From NCBI GenBank assembly GCA_003220225.1, contig QHRU01000031.1:62001-126000 (forward strand): 64,000 nt of DNA, in the 5' to 3' direction. The position numbers and the translations under genes are program-made. Shown here piece after piece: positions 35,305 to 43,234 of this stretch. Positions within the stretch are counted from its first letter, which is position 1. Each line of letters starts with the position of its first letter. A model generated the notes under the pieces. That model was not told where the DNA came from and did not search any database. It saw nothing but the letters and a program-made list of their open reading frames with translations. This DNA is from Candidatus Rokuibacteriota bacterium (lineage in GTDB: Bacteria; Methylomirabilota; Methylomirabilia; Rokubacteriales; CSP1-6).

Positions 35305-35356
35305 AGAACGGTGATGGAAACCGCCGTCATGCTTGGGTAGTAGGGAGGAGTATGCC

Positions 35357-36853
35357 ATGAGGCGACCCATGTTCCTGGCGCTGGCCGTCCTGGTCCCGGC
35401 TCTGGTTCTTGCCAGCGGCGAACGGGCGGGGGCGGGTGTCATCACGTTCGAGAGCGTTCCCGGCGTGACGGGGATGGCGTTCCTCGACGGTATGCCCGTC
35501 CCGCTCGATGCACGGCTCGGTGCTCAGCTGCAACTTTCCGACGGTGTGAGCTTCAGCTCGATCGCCGGCAGCTCGATCGTCGGCTACGTCGCTCTGGTCA
35601 ATCTGGGTAGCGGGCACGCGACAAGCGGGGTCAACGGAATCGGCGGAGTCGACGCCGCGAACACCCTCAGGTACAACTCGCCAGTGATGATCACATTCAC
35701 CTTACCCGGCGATCCCTCCACGCCGGCCATCACGAACTTCGTTTCCATTCGAGGCGATCAGTTCGCCGTCGTCGGCGGCTCGGCGACGATGGAGGCGTTC
35801 GATGTCAATGGCCTCTCGTTAGGGAGCGTGACGGCCGCGGATGTGGCGGGTGGCCTCACGCTCAGCCTCACGATGCCGAATATCCATTCCATTCTGCTCA
35901 CCCAAGCCCCCGGATCGCTCATCGCTTTCGACGACCTGACCTTCAACCCACTCTCATCACACGTGGGACAGGCCCCGACGGCGAACGCGGGACCGGATCA
36001 GTCGATCCACGCGGGCCAGCTCGTCACGCTGGACGGCACCGGGTCTTTCGACGACAACACCGCCACCGAAAACCTGATCTTCGCGTGGACGCTGACCAGC
36101 AAGCCGGACGGAAGCTCCGCGACATTATCGGGGGCCAACACCTCGCGGCCGTCGTTCGTGGCTGACCTGCCCGGGGTGTACGCCGCCAGCCTCATCGTCA
36201 CGGACGTCGACGGCTTGTCGAGCGCTCCGGATACCGTCGTCGTCAGCAGCTCAACGAACAGCGCACCCGTGGCAGACGCGGGACCCGACCAGGGTACCTT
36301 TGTCGGCAACGCGGTCTCCCTCGACGGCTCGAAGAGTCAGGATCCCGACTCCGACACCCTCCGGTTCTCATGGACGCTCGCCACGCCGGTCGGGAGCAAG
36401 GCCGCCCTCGCGGGTGCGACGACCGCCTCCCCGACCTTCACCCCGGACGTTCCGGGGAGCTATACGGCGACGCTCACCGTCAATGATCCCTTCGGCGGCG
36501 TCGCGACCGATAGCGTGGTCGTGTCGGTGGTCACGGGCGCTCAGTTCGCCGAGAACGAGGCCGTGAAAGCGCTCAACTTGATCGGCGCGCTGAGGCCGGA
36601 GCAGGTGACGTCCCGGGGCAACCGGAACGCGCTGCAGGAGTATCTCACCCAGGCCATCGCCTTCCTCCAGGCCGGTGAGTTTGACCAGGCCCGCAAAAAG
36701 CTCACGAAGGCGCTCGAGCGGACCGACGGGTGCGCTCTGGAGGGCACCCCCGACGGCAACGGCCCCGGCCGCGACTGGGTCACCGACTGTGCGGCCCAGG
36801 CGAAGTTGTACGACCTGCTGACGGCCGCATTGGACGCGCTGGCGGAGAAATAG
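35357..36853 (+). CDS. Secreted PKD-domain protein with C-terminal helical repeat-like domain
   Basis: 498 residues from ATG 35357, with GGAGGAG upstream (35343-35349). A 26-residue signal peptide (MFLALAVLVPALVLASGERAGAG) is followed by a beta-rich N-terminal domain (VITFESVPGVTGM...DDLTFNPLSSH), then two PKD repeats: PTANAGPDQSIHAGQLVTLDG and PVADAGPDQGTFVGNAVSLDG. The last 95 residues (NEAVKALNLIGAL...LDALAEK) are helical and FIMAH-like, with a Cys pair. It is probably a cell-surface or secreted adhesion/binding protein. It is monocistronic, followed by strong palindromes. Confidence 0.88.
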   Translation: MRRPMFLALAVLVPALVLASGERAGAGVITFESVPGVTGMAFLDGMPVPLDARLGAQLQLSDGVSFSSIAGSSIVGYVALVNLGSGHATSGVNGIGGVDAANTLRYNSPVMITFTLPGDPSTPAITNFVSIRGDQFAVVGGSATMEAFDVNGLSLGSVTAADVAGGLTLSLTMPNIHSILLTQAPGSLIAFDDLTFNPLSSHVGQAPTANAGPDQSIHAGQLVTLDGTGSFDDNTATENLIFAWTLTSKPDGSSATLSGANTSRPSFVADLPGVYAASLIVTDVDGLSSAPDTVVVSSSTNSAPVADAGPDQGTFVGNAVSLDGSKSQDPDSDTLRFSWTLATPVGSKAALAGATTASPTFTPDVPGSYTATLTVNDPFGGVATDSVVVSVVTGAQFAENEAVKALNLIGALRPEQVTSRGNRNALQEYLTQAIAFLQAGEFDQARKKLTKALERTDGCALEGTPDGNGPGRDWVTDCAAQAKLYDLLTAALDALAEK

Positions 36854-37734: not shown

Positions 37735-37943
37735 GGGGCCGAGGGCCCGACCCAGGGGGTTGGGCGACGACGCCGGTCCCCCCGGCCGGCGGCCGGCTCG
37801 GCCCTACATGTAGTGTGACATCCTGGCAGACACCCCAAGGAATAGTTGCCATTCGGCCGTCATCCTTGCTACTGTTCGAGTCGGCGTGGTTGCCGTCGAG
37901 CCGACTAAGGAGGACACGAAACTAGGAGCGGAAAGGAGCGCGC

Positions 37944-39083
37944 ATGCGAACGATAGCGGTCGTGAACCAAAAGGGTGGGTGTGGAAAGACCATCACATCC
38001 ATCAACCTCTCGGCCTTCCTCGCGCGCGAGCAGCGACGAGTGTTGCTCGTGGACATGGACCCGCAGGGTCATGCCACCCTGGGGCTTCTCACCGATGCGG
38101 CTCAACCTTCGAGGACCATGTACGAAGTGTTCTTGCCGGACGCCGGGCGACCACCCACCGGTCTTGGTGACGTCATCCGTCCCGTCCGCGAAAACCTCGA
38201 TGTGGCTCCGTCCGATATCCTGCTGAGTGCGATCCCCGAAACGCTCGCAGGGCGTGTCGGGCGGGAGGACATCCTGTCTGAGGCCATGGCCAGCGTCGAG
38301 GGCCGCTACGACTACGTCATTGTGGATTGCCCGCCGAACGTCGGTCTCCTGACCTTCAACACGCTGAAGGCCTGCTCGGAAGCGATCGTCCCGATGGACC
38401 CCAGCTTCTTTTCGTTGCACGGCCTCGGAAAGCTGCTGGAGACAATCGAGGTGCTGGCCAAGGAGACCGATCACCACATCGCCGTTCGCGCGCTCGTGAC
38501 GCTCTATTCGGGCCGGTCGGCCTTCGCGAAGGCGGTTCTCGATGAGATTCGCCGTCATCTCGACGGCCGGCACTTCGAGACCGTCATCAGGTACAGCGTC
38601 AAGCTCGCCGAGGCCGCGAGCCACGGCGTGCCGATCGCCCACTATAGCAGGGACTGTGTGGGATTCGACGACTACCGGGCGCTCGCGGTCGAAGTCCTGC
38701 AGCAGGAAGCCGCGATGCGCCAGCGCGAGCGTGTCACGATCAAGAGGAACGCGACCGGAGCGAGCGCGCGCGACGATGGCGCCGGATCATCGGTACCCGC
38801 CGTGACCCCCGAGGGCGTCATGTTCACCATCGAGGCTCCCGACGCCGAGCGCGTTCAACTGGCGGGCGACTTCAACAACTGGACCCTGGACGGAAACGAC
38901 ATGGAGGCCATGGATGGAGTCTGGAAGAAGGTCGTCAAGCTGCCGCCCGGACGTTACCGATATCGCTACGTGGTCGATGGGCGGTGGCAAAACGACCCGC
39001 TGAATACCACGGTCGAGCCGAGCCCGTACGGTGGCGAGGACTCCGTTCTCGTCATGGACGAGAGGGTTGCCACGGCCGGCTGA
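37944..39083 (+). CDS. ParA-type ATPase fused to a C-terminal CBM48/AMPK-like domain
   Basis: 379 residues. The N-terminal 260 residues are a ParA/MinD ATPase: deviant Walker A QKGGCGKT (9-16) with both lysines, VDMDPQGHATLGLL and the Walker-B-like VDCPPN. Residues 287-372 form an E-set domain (VMFTIEAPDAERVQLAGDFNNWTL, then PPGRYRYRYVVDG and DPLNT), the signature of glycogen-binding AMPK-beta/CBM48 modules. The aromatic and Asn of FNNW are kept. ATG 37944 has AAAGGAGCG upstream. ParA ATPases position cargo; a carbohydrate-binding tail suggests a polysaccharide-linked cargo. No parB or parS is seen. Confidence 0.9.
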   Translation: MRTIAVVNQKGGCGKTITSINLSAFLAREQRRVLLVDMDPQGHATLGLLTDAAQPSRTMYEVFLPDAGRPPTGLGDVIRPVRENLDVAPSDILLSAIPETLAGRVGREDILSEAMASVEGRYDYVIVDCPPNVGLLTFNTLKACSEAIVPMDPSFFSLHGLGKLLETIEVLAKETDHHIAVRALVTLYSGRSAFAKAVLDEIRRHLDGRHFETVIRYSVKLAEAASHGVPIAHYSRDCVGFDDYRALAVEVLQQEAAMRQRERVTIKRNATGASARDDGAGSSVPAVTPEGVMFTIEAPDAERVQLAGDFNNWTLDGNDMEAMDGVWKKVVKLPPGRYRYRYVVDGRWQNDPLNTTVEPSPYGGEDSVLVMDERVATAG

Positions 39084-39102
39084 GGGCGTCGGATTGAACA
39101 AC

Positions 39103-39732
39103 ATGGATCCGAACGAGCCTGACGGCACGGCGGGCGCACAAGACAAACCGCTTGGACGGGGATTGGAGGACGTCTCCCATCTGTTCTTGTCACGCAAGAC
39201 AGCTGACGCGTCGGCCAGCGATCGCGCGACGGCTCGTTCGCCCGAGCCCTCGTCTGCTCCGCCCGGATCCCGGGGAGGCGTCGCCCTTCTGCGGCCCGCG
39301 CCGATCACCAGGGACCGGCTTGCCGCCGCCCTGATGGAGTTCGACGGCGCGCTCGAGGAGGGGCTCAGAGCGTTTGATGCGAAAATCCCATGCCCTTCGT
39401 GCGGCGAGATCGACCTGCTCGCGGTCGATCGCGCGAGCCAACTCACGATCATCGACTTCGAGATGACCTTCGACGACAGCCTGCTGCTTCGCGGGATCGG
39501 TCATTTCGACTGGGTCGTGCGCAACATGCCGAACGTCCGACGCATGTATCGGGAGCAGGTCGTGAACTTTTCTCTTCCGCCCAGGCTGTTTCTCCTCGCG
39601 CCCCAGTTTTCTCCCTTGCTCAGAAGCGTGGCGCGGCAGATCACCCGCCCGCAGATTCACTGGGTCAGGTATCACACGGTCGACGCATCTGGCGGGCCCG
39701 GGATACTGTTCGAGCCCGTGGCAGACGAGTGA
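39103..39732 (+). CDS. Hypothetical protein with PD-(D/E)xK nuclease-like core
   Basis: 209 residues from ATG 39103 (TTG 39094 also possible), 20 nt after the ParA-CBM48 gene, so the pair is co-transcribed. A disordered first 80 residues is followed by ITRDRLAAALMEFDGALEEGL and IPCPSCGEIDLLAVDRASQLTIIDFE. The last piece resembles the E-x-D...(D/E)-x-K core of RecB/NucS-type nucleases, with DFE in place of ExK. LLRGIGHFDWVVRNMPNVRRMY and FLLAPQFSPLLRSV complete the fold. The lysine is missing, so catalysis is doubtful. Function unknown. Confidence 0.65.
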   Translation: MDPNEPDGTAGAQDKPLGRGLEDVSHLFLSRKTADASASDRATARSPEPSSAPPGSRGGVALLRPAPITRDRLAAALMEFDGALEEGLRAFDAKIPCPSCGEIDLLAVDRASQLTIIDFEMTFDDSLLLRGIGHFDWVVRNMPNVRRMYREQVVNFSLPPRLFLLAPQFSPLLRSVARQITRPQIHWVRYHTVDASGGPGILFEPVADE

Positions 39733-39764
39733 GGACCTGAGCTAGACGGGAAGCTCCTGGTGGC

Positions 39765-41732: not shown

Positions 41733-41938
41733 CGCCTCCGTCCAGAGCGGCCGCCTCGAATCCAGGCTGATACGCTACCACGCCGACCGCGCGGCTCGGC
41801 TGGCCGACCGGCGGCTACACCCGGTCGACGCAGACGGAACTGCAGAAAGCGGTGGGCGCGTTCGACGAGGTGAAGGGCCATGAGGCAACTCACGGCCCCT
41901 GGCGGCGCCATACCCGCAGCTCGATTCTGGACTCGGAG
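41733..41938. other. Intergenic stretch upstream of the enoate reductase gene, no gene seen
   Basis: Together with repeat copy B this makes a 390-bp gap between divergent genes. It holds the leader of the 41732-39765 gene, then GC-rich sequence with no convincing reading frame, tRNA or riboswitch. The two promoters that must lie here cannot be identified by eye. Confidence 0.5.
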
Positions 41939-42118
41939 CCTGTCGGAGTATCGAGGGGCGCCACGGCTTCCCCGGGGCGCCCCGAGCGTTGGAGGTCGAG
42001 GCGCGCCACGGCTTCGCCGGGGCGCGACGAGCGTTGGGGATCGAGGCGCGCCACGGCTTCGCCGGGGCGCGACGAGCGAGCGTTGGGGGGTATGGGGGGC
42101 CATTTCGGGGCCCCCCAT
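41939..42118 (-). repeat. Dispersed intergenic hairpin-plus-unit repeat, copy B (three 45-bp units)
   Basis: Read on the minus strand, it starts 6 nt after a stop codon with the same hairpin ATGGGGGGCC/GGCCCCCCAT (42109-42118 and 42092-42101, loop 42102-42108). Three units of 45 bp follow (boundaries at 42041, 41996 and 41951), each with a TCGAGG-GCGCCACGGCTT core, ending CTCCGACAGG. Copy A at 23081 has a single unit. The last unit has an extra GAGC. Confidence 0.9.
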
Positions 42119-42124
42119 ATTCAA

Positions 42125-43234
42125 CTAGTAGAGCACCATCGGATTGCCGGGCGAGCCGGTGGCGCCAATGATCCGCAGCGGCGCCCAGATGAACGCGCCC
42201 TCGAGGATCTTCTTGTCGACGAGCGACTTGGTGTCGACGTTCTCCAGGTTCCAGATGCCCCGGCGGGTCTGCATCTCCGTGTGGCAGGGCACCGCGAAGT
42301 CGGGCCCCTGCTCCCCCGAGGGCTGCGCGTCGCACGCCGACGTATCGCACATGGTCAGCGCGATGTCCCGCGCGGCCAGGTACTCGCAGGCGCTGAGGCC
42401 GAAGCCGGGCTCCCCCTGGTCGAAGAGGTCGCGGGCCGCCTTGCGCTGGGCGGAGTTCATGGATTTGTACCGATCATTGCTCCAGCTGTTGCCCTGCCCG
42501 GTGTGCAGCGCCACGCAGTCCCCCGGCGCGATGTCCCGAAGGCCTTGCATCTGGAGCATGCCTCGGACGTCATCCGCGGTGACGATGCCCGGATCGCCGG
42601 GCTTGGTGGGGATCGGCAACATCTCGGCACCCGCCGGGATCACGCCCTTAGACTTCTTGTAGGCGACGGCGTCCAGCACCACAACGCGACACACGAAGCC
42701 AAGCTCACCCGGATGCTCGACGCCCAGGGGACCCATGCCGACCACGCGGCCGCCCGCGCCGTGCTCGTAGGCGTCCCAGGAGATCACGCCGTTGTACATC
42801 ATCGGGCCCTTCGACGTGTTCACGCCGATGTGACCAGGACCGTCGAACTGCGTCTGGATCTGGCCGATCTCCGTGGTCACCAGCTCGTCGTGGTAGATCA
42901 GCGCGTTCTTGCCGAACGGGCCCCCCGTCGGCGTCCCGGGAATACTCATCTGCCAGCCCCGCGGCCCGAAGGCCGGCGCCTCCCGGTGGTAATACTTCCC
43001 GATCGTGATCGCCTTGTTCTGCTTGATGGTGGCCAGCGCCCGGGCGATGTTCGCGGCGTTCTTCGTGTGGTTGGCCGAGCCCGCCCGGTCGTTCGCCCCC
43101 CACTTGGACGGCGCCCACTTCTCGTCCAGGGGCTTGTCCGAGACCGGTCCCTTCAACGTCTGCGCGACCGCAAGGGCGGCGAACGCCAGCAGGAGCACGG
43201 TCAGGACTGCTTTGCCAATCATCGAGTGCCTCAT
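42125..43234 (-). CDS. Secreted cyclase-family (kynurenine-formamidase-like) protein
   Basis: 369 residues from ATG 43234, preferred because GAGGAGA lies just upstream. The signal peptide (MIGKAVLTVLLLAFAALAVAQ) is cleavable. TQFDGPGHIG replaces the HxGTHxDxPxH of the family, keeping the Asp and final His. Later segments GDCVALHTGQGNSW and CDTSACDAQPSGEQGPDFAVPCHTEM are typical of the long cyclase family, and EGAFIWAPLRIIG closes the fold. Metal-dependent hydrolysis of an amide or lactone in the periplasm is expected. It follows the dehydrogenase-like gene after a hairpin. Confidence 0.88.
   Translation of the reverse strand: MRHSMIGKAVLTVLLLAFAALAVAQTLKGPVSDKPLDEKWAPSKWGANDRAGSANHTKNAANIARALATIKQNKAITIGKYYHREAPAFGPRGWQMSIPGTPTGGPFGKNALIYHDELVTTEIGQIQTQFDGPGHIGVNTSKGPMMYNGVISWDAYEHGAGGRVVGMGPLGVEHPGELGFVCRVVVLDAVAYKKSKGVIPAGAEMLPIPTKPGDPGIVTADDVRGMLQMQGLRDIAPGDCVALHTGQGNSWSNDRYKSMNSAQRKAARDLFDQGEPGFGLSACEYLAARDIALTMCDTSACDAQPSGEQGPDFAVPCHTEMQTRRGIWNLENVDTKSLVDKKILEGAFIWAPLRIIGATGSPGNPMVLY

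Follow-up and report, generated by a model that had tools for sequence, protein, structure and literature searches.

A ParA-type ATPase carrying a CBM48 module and its conserved partner gene in Rokubacteriales: a possible positioning cassette for alpha-glucan

The cargoes of ParA-type ATPases include chromosomes, plasmids, carboxysomes and chemotaxis clusters, and the present locus raises the question of what such an ATPase might place, or respond to, when its own C-terminus carries a module of the AMPK-beta/CBM48 family. The locus lies in a window, by which we mean the whole stretch of 64,000 nucleotides that was analysed, on a 180-kb contig (C142) of a Rokubacterial genome of 6.0 Mb that is 97% complete. 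A preliminary description, made from the letters alone, had proposed that the ATPase and the gene behind it may position or partition a polysaccharide-associated body instead of DNA. The features discussed below are collected in Table 1.

Table 1. Features of the gene pair, in window coordinates
Feature	Position	Strand	Basis or remark
Gene 1, ParA ATPase with C-terminal AMPK-beta/CBM48 module	37944..39083	+	379 aa; Pfam; homologues in the order
ParA/Soj ATPase domain, residues 1-255	37944..38708	+	PDB phmmer to ParA/Soj chains, best E=5e-43; fold match
Walker A KGGCGKT, signature lysine K10 and K15	37971..37991	+	family alignment
H43, site of catalytic Asn (N64 of M. xanthus ParA)	38070..38072	+	His in 106/106 fusions
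CBM48 / AMPK-beta-type carbohydrate-binding module	38808..39056	+	Pfam; alignment with AMPK beta-1 and GlgB
W313 (AMPK beta-1 W100)	38880..38882	+	106/106 fusions
W348 (AMPK beta-1 W133)	38985..38987	+	106/106 fusions
Gene 2, partner protein	39103..39732	+	209 aa; adjoins gene 1 in 9/10 genomes of the order
Conserved N-terminal stretch of gene 2, ParB-like	39148..39186	+	invariance in 10 Rokubacterial partners; own ParB start
Degenerate PD-(D/E)xK domain, NucS-like, without lysine	39298..39720	+	profile A4 against PDB

The gene pair and its distribution

Gene 2 opens with an ATG at 39103 on the same strand as gene 1, 19 bases past the gene 1 stop, so that the two are directly adjacent as first described, although at a spacing of 19 and not 20 nt. 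Gene 2 accompanies gene 1 in 10 of 60 genomes of the order, across five genera, and intact homologues of gene 1 occur in eight further genomes of the order at 61-81% identity; Candidatus Rokubacteria bacterium 13_1_40CM_68_15, for example, possesses the pair, with an ATPase-CBM protein 77% identical to gene 1. The pairing is not due to chance, as the genes lie together in nine of the ten genomes that bear gene 2, and in the tenth (G009) the end of a contig truncates the ATPase part of gene 1 and leaves the CBM part. The AMPK1_CBM domain was detected in 13 of the 60 genomes, in ten of them as the ParA fusion. A search for the domain pair and its neighbours, as the preliminary description had advised, returned the pair as the sole gene block conserved around the locus in six related Rokubacteria: by blastn of window 28-50 kb, similarity to the six related loci is confined to 37834-39736, save for one 169-base match to a dispersed repeat, and because the similarity of the DNA stops at these bounds gene 1 and gene 2 constitute a conserved unit. 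Upstream of the pair, the stretch at 35333-36853 encodes two PKD domains behind a signal-like start and is not conserved in the six related loci. Downstream, positions 41775-42128 hold a dispersed or tandem repeat with a translation like MAPHTPQRS...APRRSRGAP, and similar stretches occur on contig C97 of the same genome (L161) and in G008 (L169:7933-8082).

The fusion extends well beyond the order. When 84,980 species genomes were scanned with the CBM alignment, the best 80 loci were kept, and 39 of these are ParA-CBM fusions, a count that is not a prevalence. Carriers among the matches listed belong to Planctomycetota (mostly Phycisphaerae, and also Kuenenia), Omnitrophota, Auribacter, Zixibacteria, Nitrospirota, Myxococcota, Delta- and Gammaproteobacteria, and Rokubacteria. 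Nor is the fusion an oddity of a single lineage, given that, in a sample of 150 genomes from one Planctomycetota class, that of locus L083, at least 75 possess it (12 genomes with a single alignment over the whole fusion, 59 fusions among 60 partial matches that were fetched, and four already known). The alignment of 106 fusions used below excludes the truncated locus of G009 (L006) and also L072, which lies on the same contig as L004 (53,844 bases in both) and is retained in a 48-sequence alignment and among the 39 loci. Among open-licence papers, no description of a ParA-CBM48 fusion was found. Of the neighbours in other phyla, a MerR-type regulator stands just upstream of the fusion at L097:1557-2036 (Pfam) and, by eye, at L118 and L124, and in the Zixibacteria locus L084 the fusion appears by eye to be flanked by polysaccharide export (SLBB-like) and Wzz-like chain-length genes.

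The ATPase, its carbohydrate-binding module and the glucan genes of carriers

The KGGCGKT protein had been taken for a ParA ATPase, and Pfam agrees, with AAA_31 matching residues 1-180 at E=2e-47. A structure model of gene 1 (mean pLDDT 59.8) resembles Soj, ParA and McdA structures with Z of about 22 over 220-236 residues, the matches spanning residues 1-259 and thus the ATPase part without the CBM. With M. xanthus ParA (PDB 8ray) as reference, K10 and K15 are present in all 105 readable fusions and C13 in 102, so that the Walker A motif reads KGGCGKT in 102/105. Both Asp residues of Motif 2 are likewise retained. However, the third residue of this motif, at the position of N64, the catalytic Asn of M. 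xanthus ParA (PMC12462528), is His in every one of the 106 fusions, whereas the canonical ParA of the same genome has Asn there. As a result, ATP hydrolysis may be altered. The fusion ATPase is therefore a distinct branch of ParA and not a standard ParA, its fold and all other motifs placing it in the superfamily, and the exchange of Asn for His together with the KGGCGKT form of Walker A serve, in the alignment, as the marks of that branch. Mutation of R238 in M. xanthus ParA is reported to abolish DNA binding (PMC12462528); Lys or Arg occupies this position in 102/106 fusions, which is at most suggestive of a DNA binding that would be independent of sequence. The pocket that receives ParB appears to be mostly retained by our own mapping from the same alignment, as the positions of L150, L152 and L155 are V/I/L, L and F in most fusions, and the position of L192 is Thr in gene 1.

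The C-terminal tail, first read as an AMPK-beta/CBM48 module, is indeed matched by AMPK1_CBM at 43 bits (cut-off 26.8, residues 300-357) and by CBM_48 at 38.2 bits (cut-off 22.4), and the FNNW and PPGRYRYRYVVDG stretches named as AMPK-beta signatures both align with AMPK beta-1 chains of the PDB. The preliminary description had staked its carbohydrate reading on the contact residues, whose loss would have spoken against it, and by sequence alignment the equivalents of W100, K126 and W133 are present as W313, R341 and W348. For AMPK beta-1, glycogen binding is reported to be lost in W100G and K126Q and reduced in W133L (PMC6274970). Across the 106 fusions, W313 and W348 are invariant and position 341 is R in 101 and K in five; the first and third of these figures, for W313 and R341, are partly a matter of ascertainment, because the patterns of the genome scan demanded both residues, while W348 stood in no scan pattern and the 59 added fusions were selected by the ParA part of the match. 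The module thus shares with the AMPK beta glycogen-binding domain its family, the two stacking tryptophans and the basic character of the K126 position, but it differs in that it sits on a ParA ATPase and not on a kinase complex or a glucan enzyme. As the glucan-contact residues are invariant, it is likely that the gene 1 switch holds or senses alpha-glucan. Among the fusions, the ATPase and the CBM are separated by a linker of 20 to 362 residues. Elsewhere, the CBM query returned no relatives from viral contigs, where 11 stretches fit a pattern, and no other CBM48 match was listed in the organism's own genome, a search that was not exhaustive, as the TreZ of the glucan cluster described below is absent from its list.

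A supply of alpha-glucan is certainly predicted by the gene set of the window organism, in which TreZ, a GH57 branching enzyme, GlgC, TreY, GlgE, TreS and maltokinase are encoded in one cluster on contig C97. This GlgE-type alpha-glucan and trehalose cluster is compact (G000:C97:14500-31500, L161). The lack of GlgA and of a second CBM48 match in the genome had at one stage been taken as evidence against glucan, a reading that was reversed and dropped because the GlgE-type cluster was found. Full-length GlgA (GT5) is present in 20 of the 60 genomes of the order, all of them non-carriers, and was not found in any of the ten Rokubacterial carriers. The resulting associations are weak and ignore kinship, both for GlgE (10/10 carriers vs 31/50 non-carriers of the order, p=0.023) and for GlgA (0/10 vs 20/50, p=0.023). 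In G007, the distance from the fusion to GlgE is about 18 kb on a single contig (G007:C132:65193-83701); in the window's genome the two are on different contigs. Among the 39 listed fusion genomes, taken at any completeness, a strong GlgA occurs in ten, a GlgE above its cut-off in four and both in one, either gene thus being found in 13; four genomes have no GT5 match of any kind, and 13 more have a divergent and ambiguous full-length GT5-like match.

The partner protein

Gene 2 has no match in Pfam or NCBIfam and so no ParB domain. Its N-terminus, PLGRGLEDVSHLF, is nearly invariant in all ten Rokubacterial partners, with P16, L17-L21, D23 and S25-F28 strictly so and an LGRGL..[VI] motif likewise, and the true ParB of the same genome, encoded beside a canonical ParA on contig C129, starts MNKPGLGRGLGALL. 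As judged by these residues, PLGRGLEDVSHLF is close to the N-terminus by which ParB activates ParA, that of the organism's own ParB included. In M. xanthus ParB, the ParA-binding motif is reported to consist of L11, R13, L15, L18 and I19, with R13 required for stimulation of the ATPase and the hydrophobic residues for binding (PMC12462528), and at these positions gene 2 has L, R, L, V and Ser. Partners of other ParA/MinD ATPases have been shown or suggested to act via a positively charged, disordered N-terminus, according to PMC10241942. As a control, a pattern of the motif was found in 18/30 partners vs 8/170 other ORFs and a looser pattern in 22/30 vs 26/170, figures to be read in the light of a pattern devised post hoc, after the motif had been seen, and of 30 partners that include the ten related Rokubacterial sequences.

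The remainder of gene 2 had been described as a PD-(D/E)xK-like core without the lysine. A profile of the domain (A4, 19 relatives) matches NucS (PDB 2vld) with an E-value of 9e-5 over the full sequence and of 0.005 in its best single stretch, with EndoMS and UPF0102 as weaker matches, and the lysine is indeed absent, since D-F-E stands where NucS has E-L-K; in all ten Rokubacterial partners the catalytic D is retained and the lysine missing. The similarity to NucS/EndoMS, and through them to the PD-(D/E)xK superfamily, extends across the core and to the conserved aspartate, but gene 2 has neither the catalytic lysine nor the E of E-x-K, and no DNA-binding N-terminal domain was seen in it. Gene 2 is better read as a putative ParB-like activator set on what may be an inactive nuclease fold than by the nuclease-like label alone. 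A structure model from ten sequences was too poor to add to this (mean pLDDT 44), and Foldseek returned nothing below E=0.47. In many genomes of the order, long proteins (400-650 aa) whose tails look disordered also start with the NucS-like domain, at 22-27% identity to gene 2 (e.g., G000:C113:205826-206230, L016, L020 and L025), and some of them end, by eye, like SRQWLEFLNQLGG. At L012-L015 and L017 the domain (31-37% identity) forms a short gene behind what looks by eye like an ExeA-type ATPase gene.

In other phyla, a comparable partner often follows the fusion. Among the 39 listed loci, 19 next genes encode a comparable N-terminal motif with a MinD/FlhG-like domain behind it, the next gene of L072 and of L092 has the motif without that domain, and a NucS-like domain follows in ten. 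The motif reads, for instance, LGKGLEDISYLFLS at L090, NLREISHFFLS at L079 and SLSEISHLFLSS at L170. Of the 60 loci in the class sample, 26 are matched by the FlhG-like profile and 17 by the NucS-like one, for the most part within a single protein. The count of 26 was made with a cleaner FlhG-like profile (A5), as was the match of ten FlhG-like partners to FlhG (E=8e-13), an iterated version having pulled in the Rokubacterial partners via the shared N-terminal motif and linker, with inflated E-values. The extra domain is therefore alike to FlhG/FleN of the MinD-like group, but it aligns beyond the Walker A part, which is degenerate, and it is absent from gene 2. About half of the fusion loci examined have no recognised adjacent partner. 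As far as can be read from these genes, downstream partners that start with such a motif are thus common across phyla and not universal, and gene 2 is a shortened form of them, composed of the motif and the NucS-like domain without the FlhG-like part.

A model of alpha-glucan positioning and its alternatives

From these observations a model may be constructed in which gene 1 and gene 2 form a two-gene ParA-type cassette for positioning or tethering. Gene 1 would be the ATP-driven switch, which is expected to form dimers with ATP and to bind the DNA of the nucleoid irrespective of sequence, and which brings along its own putative alpha-glucan-binding CBM48 module. Gene 2 would act as activator, the ParB-like helix of its disordered N-terminus docking at the ParA dimer interface and stimulating ATP hydrolysis, while its inactive NucS-like domain may provide a binding platform. 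The likeliest purpose would be to hold alpha-glucan, either as glycogen-like particles or as their synthesis complex, on the nucleoid, from which hydrolysis triggered by the partner would release it for redistribution. That the pair comprises a ParA switch and its activator has good support in the sequence and is probable; that it is a positioning or tethering cassette which holds alpha-glucan, with the partner as activator, is the best single reading of the locus, but one that we put forward tentatively and at somewhat less than even likelihood.

Such a cassette would resemble known systems in part. With ParA/Soj of chromosomal ParABS it shares the ATPase fold, the signature lysine of KGGxGKT, the basic DNA-binding position and the LGRGL activation motif of the partner, but the C-terminal CBM48 and the His in place of the catalytic Asn set gene 1 apart, and a partner without the CTPase and DNA-binding domain of ParB, in a locus without parS, sets the pair apart. 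McdA-McdB and other cargo-positioning ParA/MinD systems are alike in having a nucleoid-type ATPase beside a partner with a disordered N-terminus and in a cargo other than DNA, which for the present pair we infer, and by similarity of motif the N-terminus of gene 2 is predicted to stimulate its ATPase as in McdAB-type systems. ATPases of that type are not known to bear a carbohydrate-binding domain, however, nor is McdB known to be NucS-like.

The evidence on the model is divided. The model is favoured by a complete ParA domain with its fold matches to Soj, ParA and McdA, by the invariant partner motif and the similar motifs of downstream partners in other phyla, and by DNA similarity that is confined to the pair; it is weakened by Ser and Thr at the positions of I19 and L192, by the His in place of the catalytic Asn and by the roughly half of fusion loci that lack a recognised adjacent partner. 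For the positioning of glucan, the two tryptophans and the basic residue 341 of all 106 fusions and the GlgE cluster of the organism's own genome speak in favour, and the proposal of a polysaccharide-associated body is supported in part. Against it, CBM48 modules can be structural, all ten Rokubacterial carriers lack GlgA, and only 13 of the 39 listed genomes have a strong GlgA or a GlgE above its cut-off; the cargo stays inferred, as most carriers outside Rokubacteria showed no strong GlgA and no GlgE.

An alternate scenario, somewhat unlikely in our estimate, would have the CBM serve as a sensor, in line with the sensor role proposed for the CBM of AMPK beta, such that bound glucan adjusts the ATPase cycle of ParA to the state of the energy stores and the partner, by its NucS-like, or elsewhere FlhG-like, domain, reaches a cargo that is a protein complex. 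This would accommodate the variable linker and the patchy glucan genes of carriers, as well as the two further large domains borne by partners of the fusions, and ParA-type systems, as described in PMC10241942, usually reach their cargo through the partner and not through the ATPase. However, no effector gene is conserved next to the pair in Rokubacteria, and no cargo candidate was found.

It is less probable, and on balance doubtful, that the CBM48 has been repurposed for protein-protein contact or dimerisation and has lost any sugar ligand, which would make the cassette an ordinary orphan ParA with a protein cargo. The CBM48 of GlgB-type enzymes is also a structural domain, and the many carriers without strong GlgA and GlgE would fit such a loss of ligand, but in the 106 sequences, which come from many phyla, both stacking tryptophans and the basic character at the K126 position never vary, an invariance that is difficult to account for if there is no ligand.

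Partition of DNA in the manner of ParABS, for a plasmid, an integrated element or a region of the chromosome, is very improbable: a Soj-type ParA, a ParB-like activating motif in the partner and a fold that appears, by profile, to be that of DNA nucleases might suggest it, but gene 2 has no ParB domain, the window has no parS, a canonical parAB stands elsewhere in the genome (C129), the 180-kb contig is of chromosomal type, and coverage of the query reaches 80% in only two of the 5000 plasmid records that ParA matched. The preliminary description had likewise reported neither parB nor parS; no parB was found near gene 1, the ParA-ParB pair of the genome being on C129, and the 64-kb window contains no parS-like 16-mer at three mismatches or fewer, the same search near the canonical parAB giving one site with three mismatches.

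Extended to the fusions at large, the glucan-positioning model would describe a widespread nucleoid-based family in which the ATPase grips a storage polysaccharide, so that glycogen-like alpha-glucan is shared between daughters by a ParA mechanism, and in which the partners combine a ParB-type peptide with a dead FlhG-like ATPase and a dead NucS-like nuclease; we regard this broader form as possible but rather doubtful. Clear and cheap tests could start from the conserved motif of the partner, the tryptophans that never vary and the exchange of Asn for His throughout the family. If the model is true, storage polysaccharide, or else sugar sensing, would be added to what ParA-type ATPases serve, and it would become understandable how bacteria with few glucan particles pass some of them to both daughters.
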